From positions 1 through 35,173 of the forward strand of contig JANXBA010000023.1 of assembly GCA_025062075.1 (NCBI GenBank): a stretch of 35,173 nt of DNA. Direction: 5' to 3'. Below, piece after piece: positions 6,117-14,775 of this stretch. Within the stretch, counting starts at the first letter, position 1, and the number at the start of each line of letters is the position of its first letter. Source of the DNA: Aquificaceae bacterium. Lineage in GTDB: Bacteria; Aquificota; Aquificia; Aquificales; Aquificaceae. Both the position numbers and the translations under genes were made by a program. The notes beneath the pieces were generated by a model that was given only the letters and a program-made list of their open reading frames with translations, had not been told where the DNA came from and searched no databases.

Positions 6117-7088
6117 ATGGAGTTCACGCTAGACTTTAACAGCGACAAGGTTTACGACGTGGTCATAATAGGGGCAGGGCCGGCAGGGTCCTCTGCGGCC
6201 ATATACACGGCCAGAGCCGGGCTTTCTACGCTGGTGCTCTTCAGGGCGGAGGCGGACGGGGCACTCGGGGTCACCCAGCAGATAGAGAACTACCCGGGCA
6301 TAAGAGGTCCCATCTCTGGCTACGAGCTCCTCAAGCTGATAAGAGACCACGCAAAGGCCTTTGGGGCTGAGTTCGTAAGGGGGAAGGTGATAGCTACGGA
6401 CTTGCTGGGAGAGGTAAAGAAGCTCTACACCATAGACGGAAGAGAGTTCAAGGGCAGGGCGGTCATAGTGGCTTCTGGTGCTATGGAGAGGACCAACAAG
6501 TACAAGGGCGAGGAGGAACTCTTGGGCAGGGGCATCTCCTACTGCGGCGTTTGCGACGCGGCCTTCTTCAAAGGCAGACCGGTGGCGGTGGTGGGAGAGG
6601 ACGACTACGCCCTTGAGGAGACCGAGTTTATAGCACGCTTTGCCAGCAAGATATATCTGGTGGTGCCCTCCAGCAGGATAAAGGCCCCTCACGAGATGGT
6701 CTCTGAGATAGAGTCCAACCCGAAGGTGGAAGTGCTCCTCCACCACAGGGTGTTGGAAGTGGCCGGGAACTCCGTGGTAGAAGGTCTGTGGGTGCAGAGC
6801 GTGTCCACCAAAGAGAAGAAGCTCCTACCTGTGGACGGCGTTTTTATATTTCTGGGCGGGAACAAGCCCTCTGTGGACTTTCTCATGAACCAGGTGGAGA
6901 TGACCGACGAGCACTGCATAGTGGTAAACGAGGAGATGATGACCTCGGTGCCAGGCGTGTTTGCTTGCGGGGACGTGCTTTGCAACAACATAAAGCAGGC
7001 GGTCATAGCGGCCGCAGACGGCGTAAAAGCGGCCCTTGCGGTGGACAAGTACCTGAACAAGAAGGCAAAGATTACCGCCCAGTGGTAG
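6117..7088 (+). CDS. trxB: thioredoxin reductase-like flavoprotein with altered NAD(P)H site
   Basis: A 323-residue FAD protein of the low-molecular-weight thioredoxin reductase family. The FAD Rossmann motif VVIIGAGPAGSSAA is near residue 15. The redox disulfide is C143-G-V-C146-D, and the C-terminal FAD motif is VPGVFACGDV. The NAD(P)H domain is unusual. The normal GGGxSA turn reads G160-E-D-D-Y-A165, and the HRRxxxRA motif that grips the NADPH 2'-phosphate reads V-P-S-S-R-I-K-A (183-190). Family membership is clear; use of NADPH as electron donor is doubtful, and reduced ferredoxin is a plausible alternative. It is first in a plus-strand run that continues with the prenyl synthase, and its transcript is predicted leaderless. 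Confidence 0.85.
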   Translation: MEFTLDFNSDKVYDVVIIGAGPAGSSAAIYTARAGLSTLVLFRAEADGALGVTQQIENYPGIRGPISGYELLKLIRDHAKAFGAEFVRGKVIATDLLGEVKKLYTIDGREFKGRAVIVASGAMERTNKYKGEEELLGRGISYCGVCDAAFFKGRPVAVVGEDDYALEETEFIARFASKIYLVVPSSRIKAPHEMVSEIESNPKVEVLLHHRVLEVAGNSVVEGLWVQSVSTKEKKLLPVDGVFIFLGGNKPSVDFLMNQVEMTDEHCIVVNEEMMTSVPGVFACGDVLCNNIKQAVIAAADGVKAALAVDKYLNKKAKITAQW

Positions 7089-7103: not shown

Positions 7104-8012
7104 TTGCAGCGCATGTTGAGCGCCCAGCACATAAAGGAGAAGATACTACACTACTTAGACCCTGAAGTAAGAGAAGTTCTTGACATAGGGCGCTACCTTA
7201 TCACCTCCGGTGGGAAGGGGATAAGACCTCTCCTGACCCTGATGGTGTGCGACGCCTTGGGTGGGGATGTGGAGAAAGTCTTGCCCTTGGCGGTAGGCAT
7301 AGAGTACGTGCACGTTGCCTCCCTTCTTCACGACGACGTGGTGGACGGAGCTCAGACCAGAAGGGGTAAAAAGAGCGCCAATGTGCTCTTTGGCAATCAG
7401 GCGTGTATTCTGACGGGAGACTACATGTACGCAAAGGCGCTCTCTCTCTACGCCCGGTACGGCAACCTTCAGAGCGTAGAGGTGCTGAGCGATGCGGTCA
7501 TGAAGATGTCTCAGGGACAGCTCGTAGAGCTCAGAAGCCTTGGCCAGCTCATTGACATGGGAACTTACATAAAGATAATAGACTACAAGACTGGAGCTCT
7601 CTTCGGTGCCTGTATGGCGGTAGGAGCTCTGATGGCAGGCAGGAGAGACTACTGGGACTTTTACAGAGTAGGTATTTTGGCGGGCAGGGCCTTCCAGCTG
7701 GTGGACGATGCTCTGGACTACTCGGGGCAGGAGGAGAGGTTGGGCAAACCTGTGGGCTCGGACTTGGCGGAGGGCAAGTGCACCTACCCTCTTATATGCC
7801 TCTACCCTATTTTGGGAGACGAGGTAAAAGCTCTTTTCTACGAAGGGAGGCACGATGAGCTCAGGCGTAAGGTGTTGGAGCTGGGCGGGGTGGACACGAC
7901 CGTTCGTAGGGCTCAGGAGGAGTTAGACAAGGTCTTGGACTTTCTGCAGGGCCTCGGCGTGGGGGAGCAACTCAGGGAAATCCTCGTCAAACTCGTTCAG
8001 AGGGAAAGTTAG
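7104..8012 (+). CDS. ispB: trans-polyprenyl diphosphate synthase (octaprenyl-type)
   Basis: A 302-residue all-helical prenyltransferase with both aspartate-rich motifs: DDVVD at 77-81 (LLHDDVVDGAQTRRG) and DDALD in FQLVDDALDYSG. GGKGIRP near residue 36 is the diphosphate-binding part of helix B. It condenses isopentenyl diphosphate onto an allylic primer to make the quinone side chain. Small residues before the first motif are compatible with a long-chain product, but chain length cannot be read reliably. The start is either TTG at 7104 (AAGG eight bases before it) or ATG at 7113, which lacks a good ribosome-binding site. It follows trxB by 15 nt. Confidence 0.88.
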   Translation: MQRMLSAQHIKEKILHYLDPEVREVLDIGRYLITSGGKGIRPLLTLMVCDALGGDVEKVLPLAVGIEYVHVASLLHDDVVDGAQTRRGKKSANVLFGNQACILTGDYMYAKALSLYARYGNLQSVEVLSDAVMKMSQGQLVELRSLGQLIDMGTYIKIIDYKTGALFGACMAVGALMAGRRDYWDFYRVGILAGRAFQLVDDALDYSGQEERLGKPVGSDLAEGKCTYPLICLYPILGDEVKALFYEGRHDELRRKVLELGGVDTTVRRAQEELDKVLDFLQGLGVGEQLREILVKLVQRES

Positions 8013-8014
8013 AG

Positions 8015-8905
8015 GTGTTGACAGAGGAGAGCCTAAAGAGGACCTACGAGAGGAACTACCAGATTATGGGGGCGAGAGCTCCGGGACTCCTCCAGACCCT
8101 GCTACCCTTTCAGAAGAGCTACAGGCTGATTCTACAGGAGGGCAAGCTGGACGTGGACTTTGGAAGAGGGGGCATATACAGGGGAGACGCCCTTAAGTTT
8201 AGCTTGCTTCAGGTGCAGGCCTTTGAGAGGCATCCCACCAGGCTTTTCCCGGACTTTGACTTTGGGAGCGACAGCTTTTCTACGGACGGAAGTCTCATCT
8301 CCCACAGATACGCAGGCGAGCTACACAAGAAGCTAAGGGGGAGCTTCAAACTTCTGCCCCTTGAAGAGAGCAGGCACATACCTCTGCTCGTCTTGGCGGG
8401 CTTGGGCTTTGGCTTTCATCTGAGAGCTCTCCTCGAGCGTTACGAGGTCCAGAACTTGATAATTTTGGACGTGCCTGCCTTTTTTGCCCTGAGCTTGCAC
8501 ACCTTGGACTGGGGCCTAGTCTTTGACTACTACTCAAAGCCCGGCAGGAGCTTGCACCTGATAGTCGACGACAAGCTACTGCTGGAAGAGAACAAGGACA
8601 AGGCTTTTGAGGAGGTCCTGAGAGTGGCTCAGCGGATAAACCCTGGCCTCTTCTACTGGGGTTACTACCTTGAACACCTCCAGTACACGCCCACCCTTGG
8701 GTTCACAGAGTGGCTTCAAAGCTCGCCGCTTTTTGCGGAGCTTTTTCTGGGCTACTTTGACGACGAGCTGTGGTCTCTCAGGTGGACGCTGGAAAGGTGC
8801 AGAGGAAAATACCTCTCTACTTTCCTGAGAAAAAGGTCCCGCAGGGCTCGGTGGCCTTCGTGCTGGGAGCAGGTCCTTCTCTTGACCCGGCCATGGAGAA
8901 GATAA
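8015..8905 (+). CDS. Maf-like flagellin glycosyltransferase, N-terminal part (frame disrupted)
   Basis: Residues 1 to about 265 look like the N-terminal half of motility-associated-factor (Maf, COG2604/DUF115) proteins: an ERNYQIM-type opening, a glycine-rich LLVLAGLGFGFHLRALLER segment, then DVPAFFALSLH and a FDDELWSLRWTLE run that normally leads straight into the DUF115 domain. After about 8810 this frame turns into an arginine-rich, unrelated tail and stops at 8905. The DUF115 domain continues in the -1 frame from the same place. I therefore read 8015-9948 as one roughly 644-residue gene with a one-base frameshift. The family transfers nonulosonic acids to flagellin, which fits pseI and pseB downstream. 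Confidence 0.7.
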   Translation: MLTEESLKRTYERNYQIMGARAPGLLQTLLPFQKSYRLILQEGKLDVDFGRGGIYRGDALKFSLLQVQAFERHPTRLFPDFDFGSDSFSTDGSLISHRYAGELHKKLRGSFKLLPLEESRHIPLLVLAGLGFGFHLRALLERYEVQNLIILDVPAFFALSLHTLDWGLVFDYYSKPGRSLHLIVDDKLLLEENKDKAFEEVLRVAQRINPGLFYWGYYLEHLQYTPTLGFTEWLQSSPLFAELFLGYFDDELWSLRWTLERCRGKYLSTFLRKRSRRARWPSCWEQVLLLTRPWRR

Positions 8906-9948
8906 GAGACTGCCAAGATAGGGCAGTCATCTTCTCCTGCGGTTCTACCATCTCCGCCTTGAAGAGGGCAGGCATAGTTCCCGACTTTCACGTGGAAACC
9001 GAGAGGACTAAGTACACCTACGAGCTTCTGGTAGAAGTAGGAAGGGACTTTCTCAAGAAGACCCGGCTCATAGCCAACAACCCCCTGTGGACCGACTGCT
9101 TTAAGCTCTTCAAAAAGGGCTACATGTTTCTCAAGCTCAACGACACAGGTGCTTTGCTACTTGAGCAGGCAGGCTCGCCCATCATATGGCACACTGGACC
9201 TACAGTGACTGCGGCGGGCGTAGCCCTTGCGGCGGAGCTCGGCTTTGAGGAAATATATCTTTTCGGCGTAGACCTTGGCTCAAAGAACCCGCAAAGGCAC
9301 CACTCGGCGCTCACCAACTACTACGACCCTGGGAGCATACTCTCGAAGACTCCCGTGGAGCTCAGTATGACTGCCCCCGGAAACTTTGGTGGTACAGTTT
9401 ACACCAACCGGTGGTTTGCCTCCACCAGGTACTCCATAGAGCAGACTATAAGGAAAAAAGGTGTAAAGGTTTACAACGCCTCGGACGGCCTACTCATAGA
9501 GGGAGCCATACCGACGCCCCTTGAGACCTTACGTCTTGAAAGGACCATCCACAAGGAGCAAGTCATAAAAGCGGTGGAAGAGAACTTCCACACAAGATAC
9601 CTGAAGGTGGTAAGACCCACCGAGCACCTTCAGAAGCTGGTTTTGGACTTTGAGAACCTCGCGGAGAGGGTAAAAGACTACGGCAAGAGGTTTGACTTCA
9701 GGAAAAGAGAGGAGGCGGTGCAGAGCTTTACCGAGCTTGTAAAAGACCTCATTGGCCTGAAAAACCCCCTTCTGTATAACCTTCTGTATCACAACACTCA
9801 CCAGTGGAGTCAGATAGCCCTCGGACAGGCCCTCAGCATGGAAGAGGGAGAAAGAGAGGAGTTCCTGCGCTTTTTCTGGGAGCTCTACAGGGCTTTTCTA
9901 AAAGAGGCTACTGGGCAGGTCAAAAAACTTGCGGAGGAGTTCCGATGA
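8770..9948 (+). CDS. Maf-like flagellin glycosyltransferase, DUF115 part
   Basis: This frame carries the DUF115 (MptE-like) domain: SVAFVLGAGPSLD, then FSCGSTISALKRAGIVPDF, HTGPTVTAAGVALAAELG and IYLFGVDLG. A helical C-terminal region of about 150 residues follows, as in Maf proteins. A GTG at 8770 could start it on its own, but the first 20 residues would then be read inside the upstream part and no ribosome-binding site stands out. More likely it is the second half of one gene. The stop overlaps the pseI start as ATGA, so it is coupled to the pseudaminic-acid genes. Confidence 0.8.
   Translation: MVSQVDAGKVQRKIPLYFPEKKVPQGSVAFVLGAGPSLDPAMEKIRDCQDRAVIFSCGSTISALKRAGIVPDFHVETERTKYTYELLVEVGRDFLKKTRLIANNPLWTDCFKLFKKGYMFLKLNDTGALLLEQAGSPIIWHTGPTVTAAGVALAAELGFEEIYLFGVDLGSKNPQRHHSALTNYYDPGSILSKTPVELSMTAPGNFGGTVYTNRWFASTRYSIEQTIRKKGVKVYNASDGLLIEGAIPTPLETLRLERTIHKEQVIKAVEENFHTRYLKVVRPTEHLQKLVLDFENLAERVKDYGKRFDFRKREEAVQSFTELVKDLIGLKNPLLYNLLYHNTHQWSQIALGQALSMEEGEREEFLRFFWELYRAFLKEATGQVKKLAEEFR
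8806..8834 (+). other. frameshift zone joining the two Maf frames
   Basis: Going from the first to the second frame requires re-reading one base, that is a one-base loss or a -1 slip. Two A-runs are candidates: four A at 8806-8809 (in GGAAAATACC) and five A further on (in GAGAAAAAGG). The first gives the smoother protein, joining RGK to IPLYFPEK. Confidence 0.6.
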
Positions 9949-10982
9949 TAGACATAGGCGGAGTCAAGGTAGGTGAGAAGGTCCTTATCGTGGCAGAGCT
10001 CTCCGCCAACCACCTGCAGAGCCTTGACCTCGCCCTCAAGACCATAGAGGCAATAAAGGAGGCAGGTGCGGACGCGGTCAAGCTCCAGACCTACACGCCC
10101 GACACCATAACCCTGCCGGTGAAGAGCTCCCACTTTAGGATACAGGAGGAGACGCTCTGGGACGGGCAGTACATGCATGAGCTCTACAAAAAGGCCTACA
10201 CGCCCTGGGAGTGGCATCCAAAACTCTTTGAGTTTGCCCGACAGCTGGGTCTTGTGTGCTTCTCCTCTCCCTTTGACAGGACTGCGGTGGACTTTTTAGA
10301 AGAGCTCGGCACGCCTGCCTACAAAGTGGCCTCCTTTGAGATAACGGACGTACCCCTCATAGAGTACATAGCCAGCAAGGGCAAGCCCGTAATCATATCC
10401 ACGGGCATAGCCACCCTGTCGGACATAGAGGAGGCCCTCCGGGCCTGCAGGAGGGTGGGCAACGAGCAGGTGGTTCTCCTCAAGTGCGTCTCTGAGTACC
10501 CTACGCCCTACGAGGACGTAAACCTCAGGACCATTCCCAACATGAGGGAGACCTTTGGAGTGCCCGTAGGCCTGTCAGACCACACCTTGGGCATAGCGGT
10601 GCCCGTAGCAGCCGTGGCCTTGGGCGCGGTAGTGGTAGAAAAGCACTTTATACTCGACAGGTCCTTGGGAGGGCCGGATGCGGAGTTTTCCTTAGAGCCT
10701 GCGGAGTTCAAAGCCATGGTGGAGGCAGTGCGTCAGGTAGAAAAAGCTCTGGGTAAGGTCACTTACGAGCTCACAGAAGGTCAGAGGAAAATGAGAAAAT
10801 TTGCCCGAAGCCTCTTCGTGGCGGAGGACATAAAGGCAGGAGAGGTGTTCACAGAAAAAAATGTAAAGAGCGTGCGACCCGGCTACGGACTCCCACCCAA
10901 ACACCTGAAGGAAGTCTTAGGAAAGCGGGCGAGGGTTGACCTTCCCAAGGGCACGCCCCTGAGCTGGGAGGTGATAGAGTGA
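9945..10982 (+). CDS. pseI: pseudaminic acid synthase
   Basis: A 345-residue NeuB/PseI-family synthase that condenses a 6-deoxy amino sugar with phosphoenolpyruvate. Features in order are LIVAELSANH near the start, GADAVKLQTYTPDTI and CFSSPFDRTAVDFLE. YKVASFEITD, typical of PseI (sialic acid synthases differ here), GLSDHT and VVEKHF follow, with the C-terminal SAF (antifreeze-like) domain after about residue 285. The start ATG overlaps the preceding stop (ATGA), and the gene in turn overlaps pseB. The frame is open further upstream, but that stretch lies in the DUF115 coding region. PseI fits better than NeuB or LegI from the SFEITD motif and the pseB neighbour. Confidence 0.9.
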   Translation: MIDIGGVKVGEKVLIVAELSANHLQSLDLALKTIEAIKEAGADAVKLQTYTPDTITLPVKSSHFRIQEETLWDGQYMHELYKKAYTPWEWHPKLFEFARQLGLVCFSSPFDRTAVDFLEELGTPAYKVASFEITDVPLIEYIASKGKPVIISTGIATLSDIEEALRACRRVGNEQVVLLKCVSEYPTPYEDVNLRTIPNMRETFGVPVGLSDHTLGIAVPVAAVALGAVVVEKHFILDRSLGGPDAEFSLEPAEFKAMVEAVRQVEKALGKVTYELTEGQRKMRKFARSLFVAEDIKAGEVFTEKNVKSVRPGYGLPPKHLKEVLGKRARVDLPKGTPLSWEVIE

Positions 10983-12013
10983 GCTTTTTAGAGGGCAAAG
11001 TCCTGCTCATAACAGGAGGCACGGGCTCTTTCGGCAGAGCTCTGACCCGCCACCTCTTGGAGCACCACAGACCCAGAAAGATTATTATCTTCAGCAGGGA
11101 CGAGTTCAAGCAGTGGCAGATGTCGAAGGAGTTTCCCGAGGAGCTCTACCCACAGCTCAGGTTCTTCCTCGGGGACATAAGGGACAAGGACAGGCTCTGG
11201 TTTGCCCTTGACAGGGTGGACTACGTGGTGCACGCAGCGGCTCTCAAGCACGTGCCCATCCTCGAGTACAACCCGCTGGAGGCGGTCAAGACCAACATAC
11301 TGGGTGCGCAGAACCTGATAGAGGTGGCTGTAGAGAAGGGGGTGAGGAAGGTGGTAGCCCTCTCTACCGACAAGGCGGTAAACCCCGTAAACCTCTACGG
11401 GGCCACCAAGCTCACCATGGAAAAACTCTTCATCGCAGGAAACGTGTACGCAGGGGCAAAGGAGACCTCTTTTTGCGTGGTTAGGTACGGCAACGTAGTG
11501 GGAAGCAGAGGTAGCGTCATACCCTTTTTCCTCAAGCTCCTGTCGCAGGGGGAGAGGGAGCTCCCCATCACCGACGAGAGGATGACGCGCTTTTGGATAA
11601 CTCTGGAGGAAGGCATCAGGCTGGTGCTCTTTGCCCTGGAGCACGGCGAGGGGGGCGAGGTGTTCGTCCCCAAAATACCGAGCGTGCGGATAGTGGACAT
11701 AGCGAGGGCCCTCTGCCCTAAATGCTCTCTCAAAATAGTAGGCATAAGACCAGGGGAGAAGCTCCACGAGACCCTGATATCAGAGGAAGAGTCCAGAAAC
11801 CTTTACCTGGTTAAGCACGACGGGAGAGAGTACTTTGTCCTGCTACCACAGTTCCAGTTTGAAGCAAGAGCCCCCAAAAAGTGGCTGAGCTATCCCAGAG
11901 TGCCTGAGGGCTTTTTCTACAGGAGCGACGCCAACGACTGGTGGCTGGAGGGGGAAGAGCTCAAGGAGTTTCTTCGGAAGGCTATAGGGGGCCTGCAGGC
12001 CCCGGCGGATTAG
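10979..12013 (+). CDS. pseB: UDP-N-acetylglucosamine 4,6-dehydratase (inverting)
   Basis: A 344-residue short-chain dehydrogenase of the PseB/FlaA1 type, the first step of pseudaminic acid synthesis. The NADP Rossmann motif is TGGTGSFG at about 13-20; HAAALKHVP and STDKAVNPVNLYGATK contain the active-site region with the YxxxK. GEKLHETLIS in the C-terminal part is typical of PseB. It starts at GTG 10979 overlapping the pseI stop. Its 3' end carries a perfect 16-bp palindrome and overlaps the convergent porG by 4 nt. The remaining pathway genes are not in the window. Confidence 0.9.
   Translation: MSFLEGKVLLITGGTGSFGRALTRHLLEHHRPRKIIIFSRDEFKQWQMSKEFPEELYPQLRFFLGDIRDKDRLWFALDRVDYVVHAAALKHVPILEYNPLEAVKTNILGAQNLIEVAVEKGVRKVVALSTDKAVNPVNLYGATKLTMEKLFIAGNVYAGAKETSFCVVRYGNVVGSRGSVIPFFLKLLSQGERELPITDERMTRFWITLEEGIRLVLFALEHGEGGEVFVPKIPSVRIVDIARALCPKCSLKIVGIRPGEKLHETLISEEESRNLYLVKHDGREYFVLLPQFQFEARAPKKWLSYPRVPEGFFYRSDANDWWLEGEELKEFLRKAIGGLQAPAD
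11988..12003. repeat. perfect 16-bp GC-rich palindrome at a convergent gene end
   Basis: GGGGCCTGCAGGCCCC reads the same on both strands and can fold into a six-pair stem with a TGCA loop in either transcript. It lies in the last codons of pseB, 7 nt from the overlapping convergent stop codons. No T-run follows on either side, so a standard intrinsic terminator is not shown. Confidence 0.6.
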
Positions 12014-12723
12014 ACCGCTACCTTCTTGGGCGGTGGTGGCAGGAAAGCCTCAAGCCCCTGCTCCTGAGCCCACCTCTGGGCAAGCTCGTAGGCTGCCCTT
12101 GCGGTGTTTAGGTTTTTCTCTATAAGCTCCAGCTTCTTCTTGAACTTCCTCTCAAGGGCGGAGTCCAAGGAGGCAGTCCCGCCGGAGGCCACAAACTTCT
12201 TCAGGAACCTTGACTTTATGCCCTCTTCGATGGCCTCTACACCTACCACGCCTATGGCACCGAAGAGAGCTCCTATCATAGCCATGTTGGTGGAGAGCTC
12301 CGTGCCTGCGATGTCAATGGCGAACTTGGTGGCAGGGAAGTTAAGAACCTTCACCTCCAAGCTCTCCAACCTCTCTTTGTCCTCCTCCGTCAGCAGGTCT
12401 TCCTCCGTGTTTATTATCACCAGACCCTTTCTTTTTATGCCGGAGTAGAAGGGCATGGTGTAAGACTTGCCCATGGTTATGACCTGCGGGTGGAAGACCA
12501 TTATCACGTCCGGGTAGACCACCTCGCCCCTGTCGTAGATGGGCTCCATGCCTATGCGGGCGTAGCTCTCCGCCGGTGCCATCCTCTTCTCCGCGCCGAA
12601 GAAGGGGTTAGAAACTGCGTAGTAGCCCTCGTAGTCCGCCGCGGTAGCTATGATGTGCGCTGCGGTGACCGCACCTTGACCACCCAGCGCAGGCATGCGT
12701 ATGTTTACCCTTCTCCTCTTCAT
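12010..12723 (-). CDS. porG: 2-oxoacid (pyruvate):ferredoxin oxidoreductase, gamma subunit
   Basis: A 237-residue gamma subunit. MPALGGQGAVTAAHIIATAA at the N-terminus and NPFFGAEKRMAPAESYARI are the usual CoA-domain signatures, and an insert-rich C-terminal helix follows. The complex carboxylates acetyl-CoA to pyruvate (or an analogous 2-oxoacid step) with reduced ferredoxin, central to the reductive TCA cycle. It is the last gene of the minus-strand operon and its start overlaps the beta-subunit stop by 4 nt. Its stop overlaps that of pseB on the other strand. Pyruvate versus 2-oxoglutarate specificity cannot be settled by eye. Confidence 0.88.
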   Translation of the reverse strand: MKRRRVNIRMPALGGQGAVTAAHIIATAADYEGYYAVSNPFFGAEKRMAPAESYARIGMEPIYDRGEVVYPDVIMVFHPQVITMGKSYTMPFYSGIKRKGLVIINTEEDLLTEEDKERLESLEVKVLNFPATKFAIDIAGTELSTNMAMIGALFGAIGVVGVEAIEEGIKSRFLKKFVASGGTASLDSALERKFKKKLELIEKNLNTARAAYELAQRWAQEQGLEAFLPPPPKKVAV

Positions 12724-13580
12724 AGCAGACCCTCCTCTTTCTTGCGCTCTATGACCTCCTTTGCGGGCTCGCTCATGTACTCAAAGAAGGAGAACCTCTC
12801 CTTGTCCCTCTGTCTCATCTCGTCCAGACCGTCGTCGGAGTTAAGACCTATCTCAAGAATGCAGGGCGTATACAGGTGCACGTAGGTGGGTCCTACTTCC
12901 CTTGCTACGTATATGGCCTTCTTTATGACCGTTTCCACCCTCTTGGGGGAGGACACGGTAAGCCTTGCCACGTAGTGGCATCCCGAGTCTATGGCTATCT
13001 GCCAGAAGGGCACCTTGTCCCACTGCTTGCCCTTGGGTGCCATCTTAAACACGTGCCCCTTTACCGTTAGACCGCTCTCCTGACCACCCGTGTTGGCGTA
13101 GACCTCGTTGTCAAAGCATATGGTGGTTATCTTCTCCTGTCTAAAGAAAGACTGAAGAGTGCAGTCCAAACCTATGTCCACCGTGGCACCGTCGCCCGCC
13201 AGCACCACTACATCTTTGACCTTGTCAGGAAACCTCCACTCCAGCACCCTCTTTATGCCGGAGGCCACCGCGTTCTGGTTTCCAAACAGGGAGTGAACCG
13301 TGTGCAGGGCTATGTGAGGAAAGACCAAGGAGGTGCATCCGGTGGAGTTTACTATGATGGTGTCCTCGGGGTTGGGCAGGGAAGCCAGTATGTACCTCAA
13401 GGCCATGGACTCGGGGCATCCCGCACAGAGGGAGTGCTCCTCTATGAGCTCCTTGGAGTAGGGCAGGTCCATCACACCCCTTTTGGGGTTGCCCCAGGTG
13501 GCTTTAAACTGCAGGTCTTTTATCTCCTGGGGCATCACATCCAGCAGGTCTTCGTTTATCTCGTATACCTTATAGGACAT
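12720..13580 (-). CDS. porB: 2-oxoacid (pyruvate):ferredoxin oxidoreductase, beta subunit
   Basis: A 286-residue thiamine-diphosphate subunit. HSLCAGCPE and NSTGC supply cluster ligands near the start, and a further Cys lies in YTPCILE near residue 250. The TPP motif is GDGATVDIG followed by FDNEVYANTGGQ. It transfers the hydroxyethyl (or acyl) unit and electrons through a [4Fe-4S] cluster. A strong AGGAGG lies before the ATG, and the gene overlaps the alpha-subunit end by 11 nt, so the order alpha-beta-gamma is tightly coupled. Confidence 0.9.
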   Translation of the reverse strand: MSYKVYEINEDLLDVMPQEIKDLQFKATWGNPKRGVMDLPYSKELIEEHSLCAGCPESMALRYILASLPNPEDTIIVNSTGCTSLVFPHIALHTVHSLFGNQNAVASGIKRVLEWRFPDKVKDVVVLAGDGATVDIGLDCTLQSFFRQEKITTICFDNEVYANTGGQESGLTVKGHVFKMAPKGKQWDKVPFWQIAIDSGCHYVARLTVSSPKRVETVIKKAIYVAREVGPTYVHLYTPCILEIGLNSDDGLDEMRQRDKERFSFFEYMSEPAKEVIERKKEEGLL

Positions 13581-14775
13581 GTTTTACCTCCTTGCCGGTA
13601 AGTTTCATAACCTCTTTCACTATAAACTCTGGGGGCATGGTCATTCCGCCTGCCACTCTGGGAGCTCCTATTACCTCCGCGTCGCACACGCCGTAGAGGT
13701 ATCTCCTCACCTCACGCTCTAACCAACCTACCACATTGAACTCGGGCACGAAGATGTACTTGGCACCCTTGACCGCCTGTCTGAGCTCTTCTACGGGGAA
13801 GGGTCTTATGGTCTTGAGCTTTAGCACTCTGGCCTTTATGCCCTCTTCCTCTAAAAGCCTTACCGCTTCCTTTGACTGGGCAGCGGCGGTTCCGCAGGCT
13901 ACGAACAGGAGCTCTGCGGTCGGGTCTCCGAACTCCTCGGTGAGACCTCTCAGGTAGTGCTTTGCATATGGTCTTGACCTTTCAATGGCTGACCTTACCT
14001 CCCACTGCCAGCTGGCGTGAGTGGCGTAGGATATGTAGTTAGACTTCATGACGAAGGGGTCTCTAAGAAACCTTCCCGGGGGCACTTCCGCATCTATGAC
14101 AGGCATGGGTGCTTTGTAGGGGTTGTAGGGTGGCAGGGCTATGTCGTCAGGCGGTAGCATGACCGCCTCTCTGGTGTGAGAGACGAAAAAGCCGTCCACG
14201 GCGGTTATCACTGGGACATGCACATCTGGCTGTTCTGCCACCACGAAGCCTGCGATTATCATGTCAAAGAGGTCCTGGGCGTTCTCCGCGTACCATATCA
14301 TGCACCCCGTATCGAGGAGGAAACTTACCTCCAAGTTGTCAGGCTGTATGGAAAGAGGGGAGTTTACACCTCTTGCCATAAGCACCAGCTGGACAGGTAT
14401 GCGGGTACCCGCCCACATGGGGAAGTTTTCCATAGCTCTCAGCGTTCCCGGGCCTGAGGTGGTGGTTATGGCCCTCGCACCGGCCATGGCACAGCCTGCC
14501 AGCTCGGACATAACTCCAAACTCCGACTCGCCCCTGAAGTAAACACCCACATAGCCCTCCACCCAGAGCTCTCCTATCAAGTGCGCCGCCTCTGACTGGG
14601 GCGTGATAGGATAAGAGACTGAGGCGTCCACGGAGGACCTCTTGACCGCCTCCTTGACCGCTTCTGAGCCGGTCATGAAGTGTTTGGTTCTGGGCGCTTC
14701 AAAAAGAAGGTAGTCTGGCGAGACCACTCTCTGCCCCGCCCTGTTGTATACCACTGTCTCTGTAACGGTTTGCAT
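13570..14775 (-). CDS. porA: 2-oxoacid (pyruvate):ferredoxin oxidoreductase, alpha subunit
   Basis: A 401-residue alpha subunit with SYPITPQSEAAHLIGEL, the pyrimidine-binding signature, near residue 54. TTTSGPGTLRAMENFPMWAGTR follows, and a C-terminal transketolase-like domain containing VACGTAAAQSKEAVRLL comes after about residue 250. GGAGG sits 6 nt before the ATG. A 58-nt gap separates it from the Uma2-like gene upstream, the largest gap in the operon. It forms the catalytic core together with the beta and gamma subunits. Confidence 0.9.
   Translation of the reverse strand: MQTVTETVVYNRAGQRVVSPDYLLFEAPRTKHFMTGSEAVKEAVKRSSVDASVSYPITPQSEAAHLIGELWVEGYVGVYFRGESEFGVMSELAGCAMAGARAITTTSGPGTLRAMENFPMWAGTRIPVQLVLMARGVNSPLSIQPDNLEVSFLLDTGCMIWYAENAQDLFDMIIAGFVVAEQPDVHVPVITAVDGFFVSHTREAVMLPPDDIALPPYNPYKAPMPVIDAEVPPGRFLRDPFVMKSNYISYATHASWQWEVRSAIERSRPYAKHYLRGLTEEFGDPTAELLFVACGTAAAQSKEAVRLLEEEGIKARVLKLKTIRPFPVEELRQAVKGAKYIFVPEFNVVGWLEREVRRYLYGVCDAEVIGAPRVAGGMTMPPEFIVKEVMKLTGKEVKHVL

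Follow-up and report, generated by a model that had tools for sequence, protein, structure and literature searches.

Ferredoxin-dependent flavin thioredoxin reductases (FFTRs) are defined by a CxxC site, a GxGxxG motif, GR/KG and FF motifs and the loss of GxGxxA/G (PMC9025218), and the literature we searched describes them from cyanobacteria and clostridia and does not name the Aquificota among their hosts. In the cyanobacterial enzyme a tryptophan of the C-terminal tail reaches across to the partner protomer and stacks on its FAD, NADPH is unusable and ferredoxin is the donor (PMC12796991; PMC8469568). For the Gloeobacter enzyme (GvFFTR), potentials of -448 mV for the FAD and -424 mV for Fdx1 have been reported, and NADPH is not used (PMC12796991). 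This protein was once called "DTR"; later work identified it as a ferredoxin enzyme, and it now goes by the name FFTR (PMC9025218; structure 6XTF in PMC12796991). Both Gloeobacter and Prochlorococcus possess an FFTR and lack the Fe-S enzyme FTR (PMC9025218).

In this study, we describe a reductase gene in a 35,173-nucleotide stretch of DNA (the window, meaning the whole stretch that was analysed) whose product is most probably, judging from sequence comparisons, an FFTR from the W-tailed branch represented by Gloeobacter and Prochlorococcus. The features that bear on this reading are as follows:

6117-7088, forward strand: FFTR-like flavin disulfide reductase P0001 (ATG start, 323 amino acids)
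6171-6188, forward strand: FAD motif GAGPAG, residues 19-24 (located in the translation)
6525-6533, forward strand: thioredoxin-binding motif GRG, residues 137-139 (from the sequence; motif definition from PMC9025218)
6543-6554, forward strand: redox disulfide CGVC, residues 143-146 (located in the translation)
6564-6569, forward strand: thioredoxin-binding motif FF, residues 150-151 (from the sequence; motif definition from PMC9025218)
6594-6611, forward strand: GEDDYA, residues 160-165, in place of GGGxSA (motif location and orthologue comparison)
6663-6686, forward strand: VPSSRIKA, residues 183-190, in place of HRRxxxRA (motif location and orthologue comparison)
6954-6974, forward strand: second FAD motif GVFACGD, residues 280-286 (located in the translation)
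7062-7085, forward strand: C-terminal tail KAKITAQW, with W323 at 7083-7085 aligned with the FAD-stacking W315 of GvFFTR
7104-8012, forward strand: polyprenyl synthetase, which follows the reductase in same-genus relatives as well
12010-14775, reverse strand: 2-oxoacid:ferredoxin oxidoreductase (Por/Kor) gamma, beta and alpha genes

The 323-residue product is a thioredoxin-reductase-type flavoprotein by NCBIfam and Pfam profiles, and its score of 343.2 against TIGR01292, the profile of the NADPH-dependent enzymes (NTRs), lies just under the NCBIfam cut-off of 343.45. It is like the NTRs in fold, FAD site and CxxC, but the NADPH motifs GxGxxA and HRRxxxR are missing. All the sequence features by which FFTRs are recognized (CxxC, GxGxxG, GR/KG, FF, the loss of GxGxxA/G and the tryptophan tail) are present. 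The first-pass annotation had described the two replaced motifs and had called both FAD motifs and CGVC intact; we found each of them at the residues it gave. It had mentioned neither the terminal tryptophan (W323) nor the reassignment of the Gloeobacter "DTR" as a ferredoxin enzyme.

Both replaced regions recur in orthologues from 37 genomes at 58-90% identity, the first as [DE]DDY[AG] (DSEYA in one family, f3) and the second as VPxxxxKAP or a near variant, and the tryptophan is the last residue of this type of enzyme in 37 of the 37 genomes. The substitution rates are a dN of 0.06-0.17 against a dS of about 1.7 or saturated, and dN is at most 0.31 even in the former NADPH domain (NG86). Since the replaced regions recur in this way and dN is low relative to dS, sequencing error, decay and a pseudogene were rejected as explanations.

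The closest sequence match in the PDB is the Gloeobacter FFTR (5J60/6XTF) with 253 bits, against 224 or fewer for the NADPH enzymes, and the alignment extends to the terminal tryptophan. Over its whole length the protein is 43% identical to GvFFTR, the sequence of which was assembled from the printed PDB alignment (chain residues 9-318). The two proteins share the CxxC, the FAD motifs, GRG and FF, the loss of both NADPH motifs, the tryptophan tail and a set of signature residues: A49, L72, R211, K250, K293 and W323 are common to the window type and the cyanobacterial FFTRs and seldom or never occur in the 30 NTRs compared. They differ in that the window chain stops at the tryptophan whereas the GvFFTR tail reaches His317, in that GEDDYA stands opposite GLNPEA, and in that the host of the window protein is thermophilic and non-photosynthetic and its relatives often carry the gene beside that of an AhpC-type peroxiredoxin. 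The Prochlorococcus FFTR, which is the sole thioredoxin-reductase-like match in one Prochlorococcus genome, belongs to the same clade and likewise has a tryptophan tail and no NADPH motifs; unlike the window protein, it continues past the tryptophan (..DWVHS) and has a cyanobacterial host.

In a tree of 62 rows, the window type, the cyanobacterial FFTRs and one Neobacillus protein are joined at 100/100, and the grouping of the window type with the cyanobacterial FFTRs holds at 100/98 on the FAD domain alone, that is, on 178 columns without the former NADPH domain and tail. Another reading would be that the NADPH motifs were lost independently from a local Aquificota NADPH reductase, the likeness to FFTRs being convergent. 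Such losses do seem to occur in the phylum: in family f4, two thioredoxin reductases (L047 and L048) have changed NADPH motifs (GRGEIA, LNKK) and no tryptophan tail, and they fall near the NTRs of family f5 in a quick tree, so that their motif loss is apparently, from these sequences, separate from that of the window type. However, AU tests reject a union of the window type with the f5 NTRs (p 5.7e-7) or with the canonical paralogues of its own family (p 8.9e-5), and together with the FAD-domain tree they lead us to reject convergence, which we regard as hardly credible. Membership of the W-tailed FFTR branch is thus well supported by the sequence comparisons.

Clostridial FFTR (6GNA-D) is likewise a flavin enzyme without NADPH motifs, for which ferredoxin is the donor in the literature, but it is shorter (about 288 amino acids) and has no C-terminal tail. 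The window protein was not grouped with it in a quick tree, a weak test given the very long clostridial branch. Among the matches listed outside Aquificota and cyanobacteria are two thioredoxin-reductase-like proteins. In Neobacillus massiliamazoniensis (L079:5668-6933) a single chain combines a glutaredoxin (CPHC) with an FFTR-like domain that lacks the NADPH motifs; the fusion protein ends in ..RPQYS, with tyrosine replacing tryptophan, its gene adjoins a Dps-like gene, and the genome has two more thioredoxin-reductase-like genes. In a Nitrososphaeria archaeon (L101:1209-2156) a thioredoxin-reductase-like protein with GDGNIA and TRRASLSG has a tail containing tryptophan (TVDWHK). A quick tree places it beside one group of Aquificota paralogues (type C, below), and the tail tryptophan may therefore have arisen more than once.

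Because the closest characterized relative runs on ferredoxin, the use of ferredoxin by the enzyme in these CO2-fixing thermophiles is very probable. Some thioredoxin-reductase-like enzymes bind nucleotides in unusual ways, and the altered Rossmann domain keeps its fold in the AlphaFold2 (AF2) model, so that NADH or NADPH might still be used through a non-classical site. We consider this quite unlikely, as GxGxxA is broken and the arginine cluster gone, both conserved in that state among the orthologues, and NADPH is no donor for GvFFTR, the characterized relative (PMC12796991). That the donor is another low-potential carrier, such as flavodoxin, another flavoprotein, a membrane donor or one yet to be named, is also unlikely. 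Sequence alone names no donor, and the window's own genome encodes several Fe-S carriers, among them a plant-type [2Fe-2S] protein (L173) and a small [4Fe-4S] protein (L178); yet the tested member of the clade uses a [2Fe-2S] ferredoxin, and the window type and FTR, itself driven by ferredoxin, exclude each other.

The AF2 monomer has the thioredoxin reductase fold (pLDDT 88.8) and contains neither a dimer partner nor a ferredoxin. In a fold search, 5J60 ranked first by E-value, and closed NTR crystals fitted better by TM-score (about 0.9, against 0.55 for 5J60) because the domains are modelled closed. The domain arrangement of the model is the closed one of an NTR. AF2 on the FFTR rows alone gave a poor, low-confidence model. 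The closed monomer comes from an NTR-containing alignment, which such models follow, and is neutral toward the donor claim.

In a phylum sample of 136 genomes, with families coded f1 to f5 (f1 being, at a guess, Aquificaceae and f2 Hydrogenothermaceae), the window type (A) was present in 64: 58 of the 64 genomes of f1, six of the seven of f3 and none of the 41 of f2. The catalytic subunit of FTR was found in 36 genomes, all belonging to f2 (36/41), and the two occurred together in none of the 136; FTR (PF02943 catalytic subunit) was also not found in the window's own genome. FTR resembles the window enzyme in its supposed role of passing electrons from ferredoxin to thioredoxin, but is an unrelated protein. 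The Fisher p for the exclusion is 5e-13, which is overstated, as genomes from one family cannot count as independent observations; the exclusion rests on few independent family-level events, since the split follows family lines. The pattern in the phylum matches that reported for Gloeobacter and Prochlorococcus, which have FFTR and no FTR (PMC9025218). Seven f1 and f3 genomes lack type A, which may in part reflect assembly gaps; one of them, G043 (99% completeness), carries the canonical type instead.

Three reductase lineages occur in f1: A; B, with GGGDSA and HRRDxLRA intact; and C, with GGGNSG and no HRR, which is nearest to Sulfolobus TrxB-3. The canonical paralogue B of relatives scores 387.4 on TIGR01292. 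The window's genome (1.25 Mb, 99.7% complete) has A and C, and the canonical NTR (B) was not found in it. Its second thioredoxin-reductase-like protein (L002, G000:C56:12779-13666) has an intact GxGxxG and no HRR cluster, is closest to Sulfolobus TrxB-3 and could serve as a PDO reductase linked to NAD(P)H. Type A is the only thioredoxin-reductase-like enzyme (E<=1e-10) in G001 (99% complete), G010, G063, G106 and G107; several f1 genomes retain a canonical NTR alongside it, so that A stands alone in some genomes only.

The Por/Kor genes are a plausible source of reduced ferredoxin. They lie 5 kb from the reductase gene in the window and adjoin it in one relative (L059) but not in another (L066), and gene order is therefore weak evidence for the donor. 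Between the prenyl synthetase and this cluster (8015-12013) are genes for pseudaminic acid synthesis and a Maf-like glycosyltransferase (PseI, PseB). Upstream of the reductase, the window encodes a Ppx whose top PDB match is 1T6C/2J4R, the Aquifex aeolicus enzyme; on this ground the phylum of the host is taken to be Aquificota. At 332-1231 it encodes a 299-residue protein that has a pair of ferritin-like domains and matches EncB (encapsulin cargo) weakly, under the cut-off.

As to the acceptor, no WCGPC thioredoxin was found in the window's own genome in a PF00085 search, and a PDO or a peroxiredoxin is therefore as likely an acceptor as a classical thioredoxin. As regards the acceptor, the other option named in the first-pass annotation, another disulfide flavoenzyme, may thus still apply. 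It is conceivable, if somewhat doubtful, that the main client is a peroxiredoxin, reached directly or through PDO or glutaredoxin-like carriers, and not classical thioredoxin, which would be compatible with ferredoxin as the donor. In 20 of 37 loci, each from a distinct genome, the reductase gene is preceded at a distance of 33-74 bp by a same-strand gene for an AhpC-type peroxiredoxin, and the window's genome encodes a PDO over the NCBIfam cut-off (L072); in L060 a divergent PDO gene is near type A. On the other hand, the thioredoxin-binding motifs GRG and FF are retained, and the window's genome keeps the enzyme though no AhpC-type gene was found in it beyond distant matches (39 and 31%).

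The first-pass annotation had proposed a ferredoxin-driven reductase of the FFTR/DTR type, and the top PDB match, the tree, the tail tryptophan, the signature residues and the exclusion with FTR, all read from sequence, point the same way. For such a ferredoxin-dependent enzyme, electrons would most likely flow from ferredoxin to FAD, to the CxxC and on to a thioredoxin-like protein or PDO, and possibly from there to peroxiredoxin. The enzyme would be a homodimer in which, in the open state, each subunit's W323 stacks against the partner's FAD. Two reduced ferredoxins, from Por/Kor or a hydrogenase, would each donate one electron to the FAD; the CxxC domain would then swing in and the tryptophan out, allowing the reduced FAD to reduce the disulfide. 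The resulting dithiol would reduce a carrier of the thioredoxin type (in this genome, PDO or a small protein resembling thioredoxin), which in relatives may recharge the AhpC-type peroxiredoxin encoded directly upstream.

The point of interest is the exclusion between FTR and FFTR beyond cyanobacteria, which suggests that the Fe-S and flavin solutions replace each other. A thermostable FFTR would also be useful for capturing the closed conformation, so far unseen by crystallography. Tentatively, Aquificaceae-type bacteria may run a dedicated chain from ferredoxin through FFTR, with PDO or directly, to AhpC, fed from the reductive TCA cycle's pool of ferredoxin, with FTR and FFTR interchangeable and swapped separately in Aquificota and cyanobacteria. 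That the W-tailed type occurs across a family of chemolithoautotrophic thermophiles, and never alongside FTR, suggests that linking thiol redox control to ferredoxin does not require photosynthesis.
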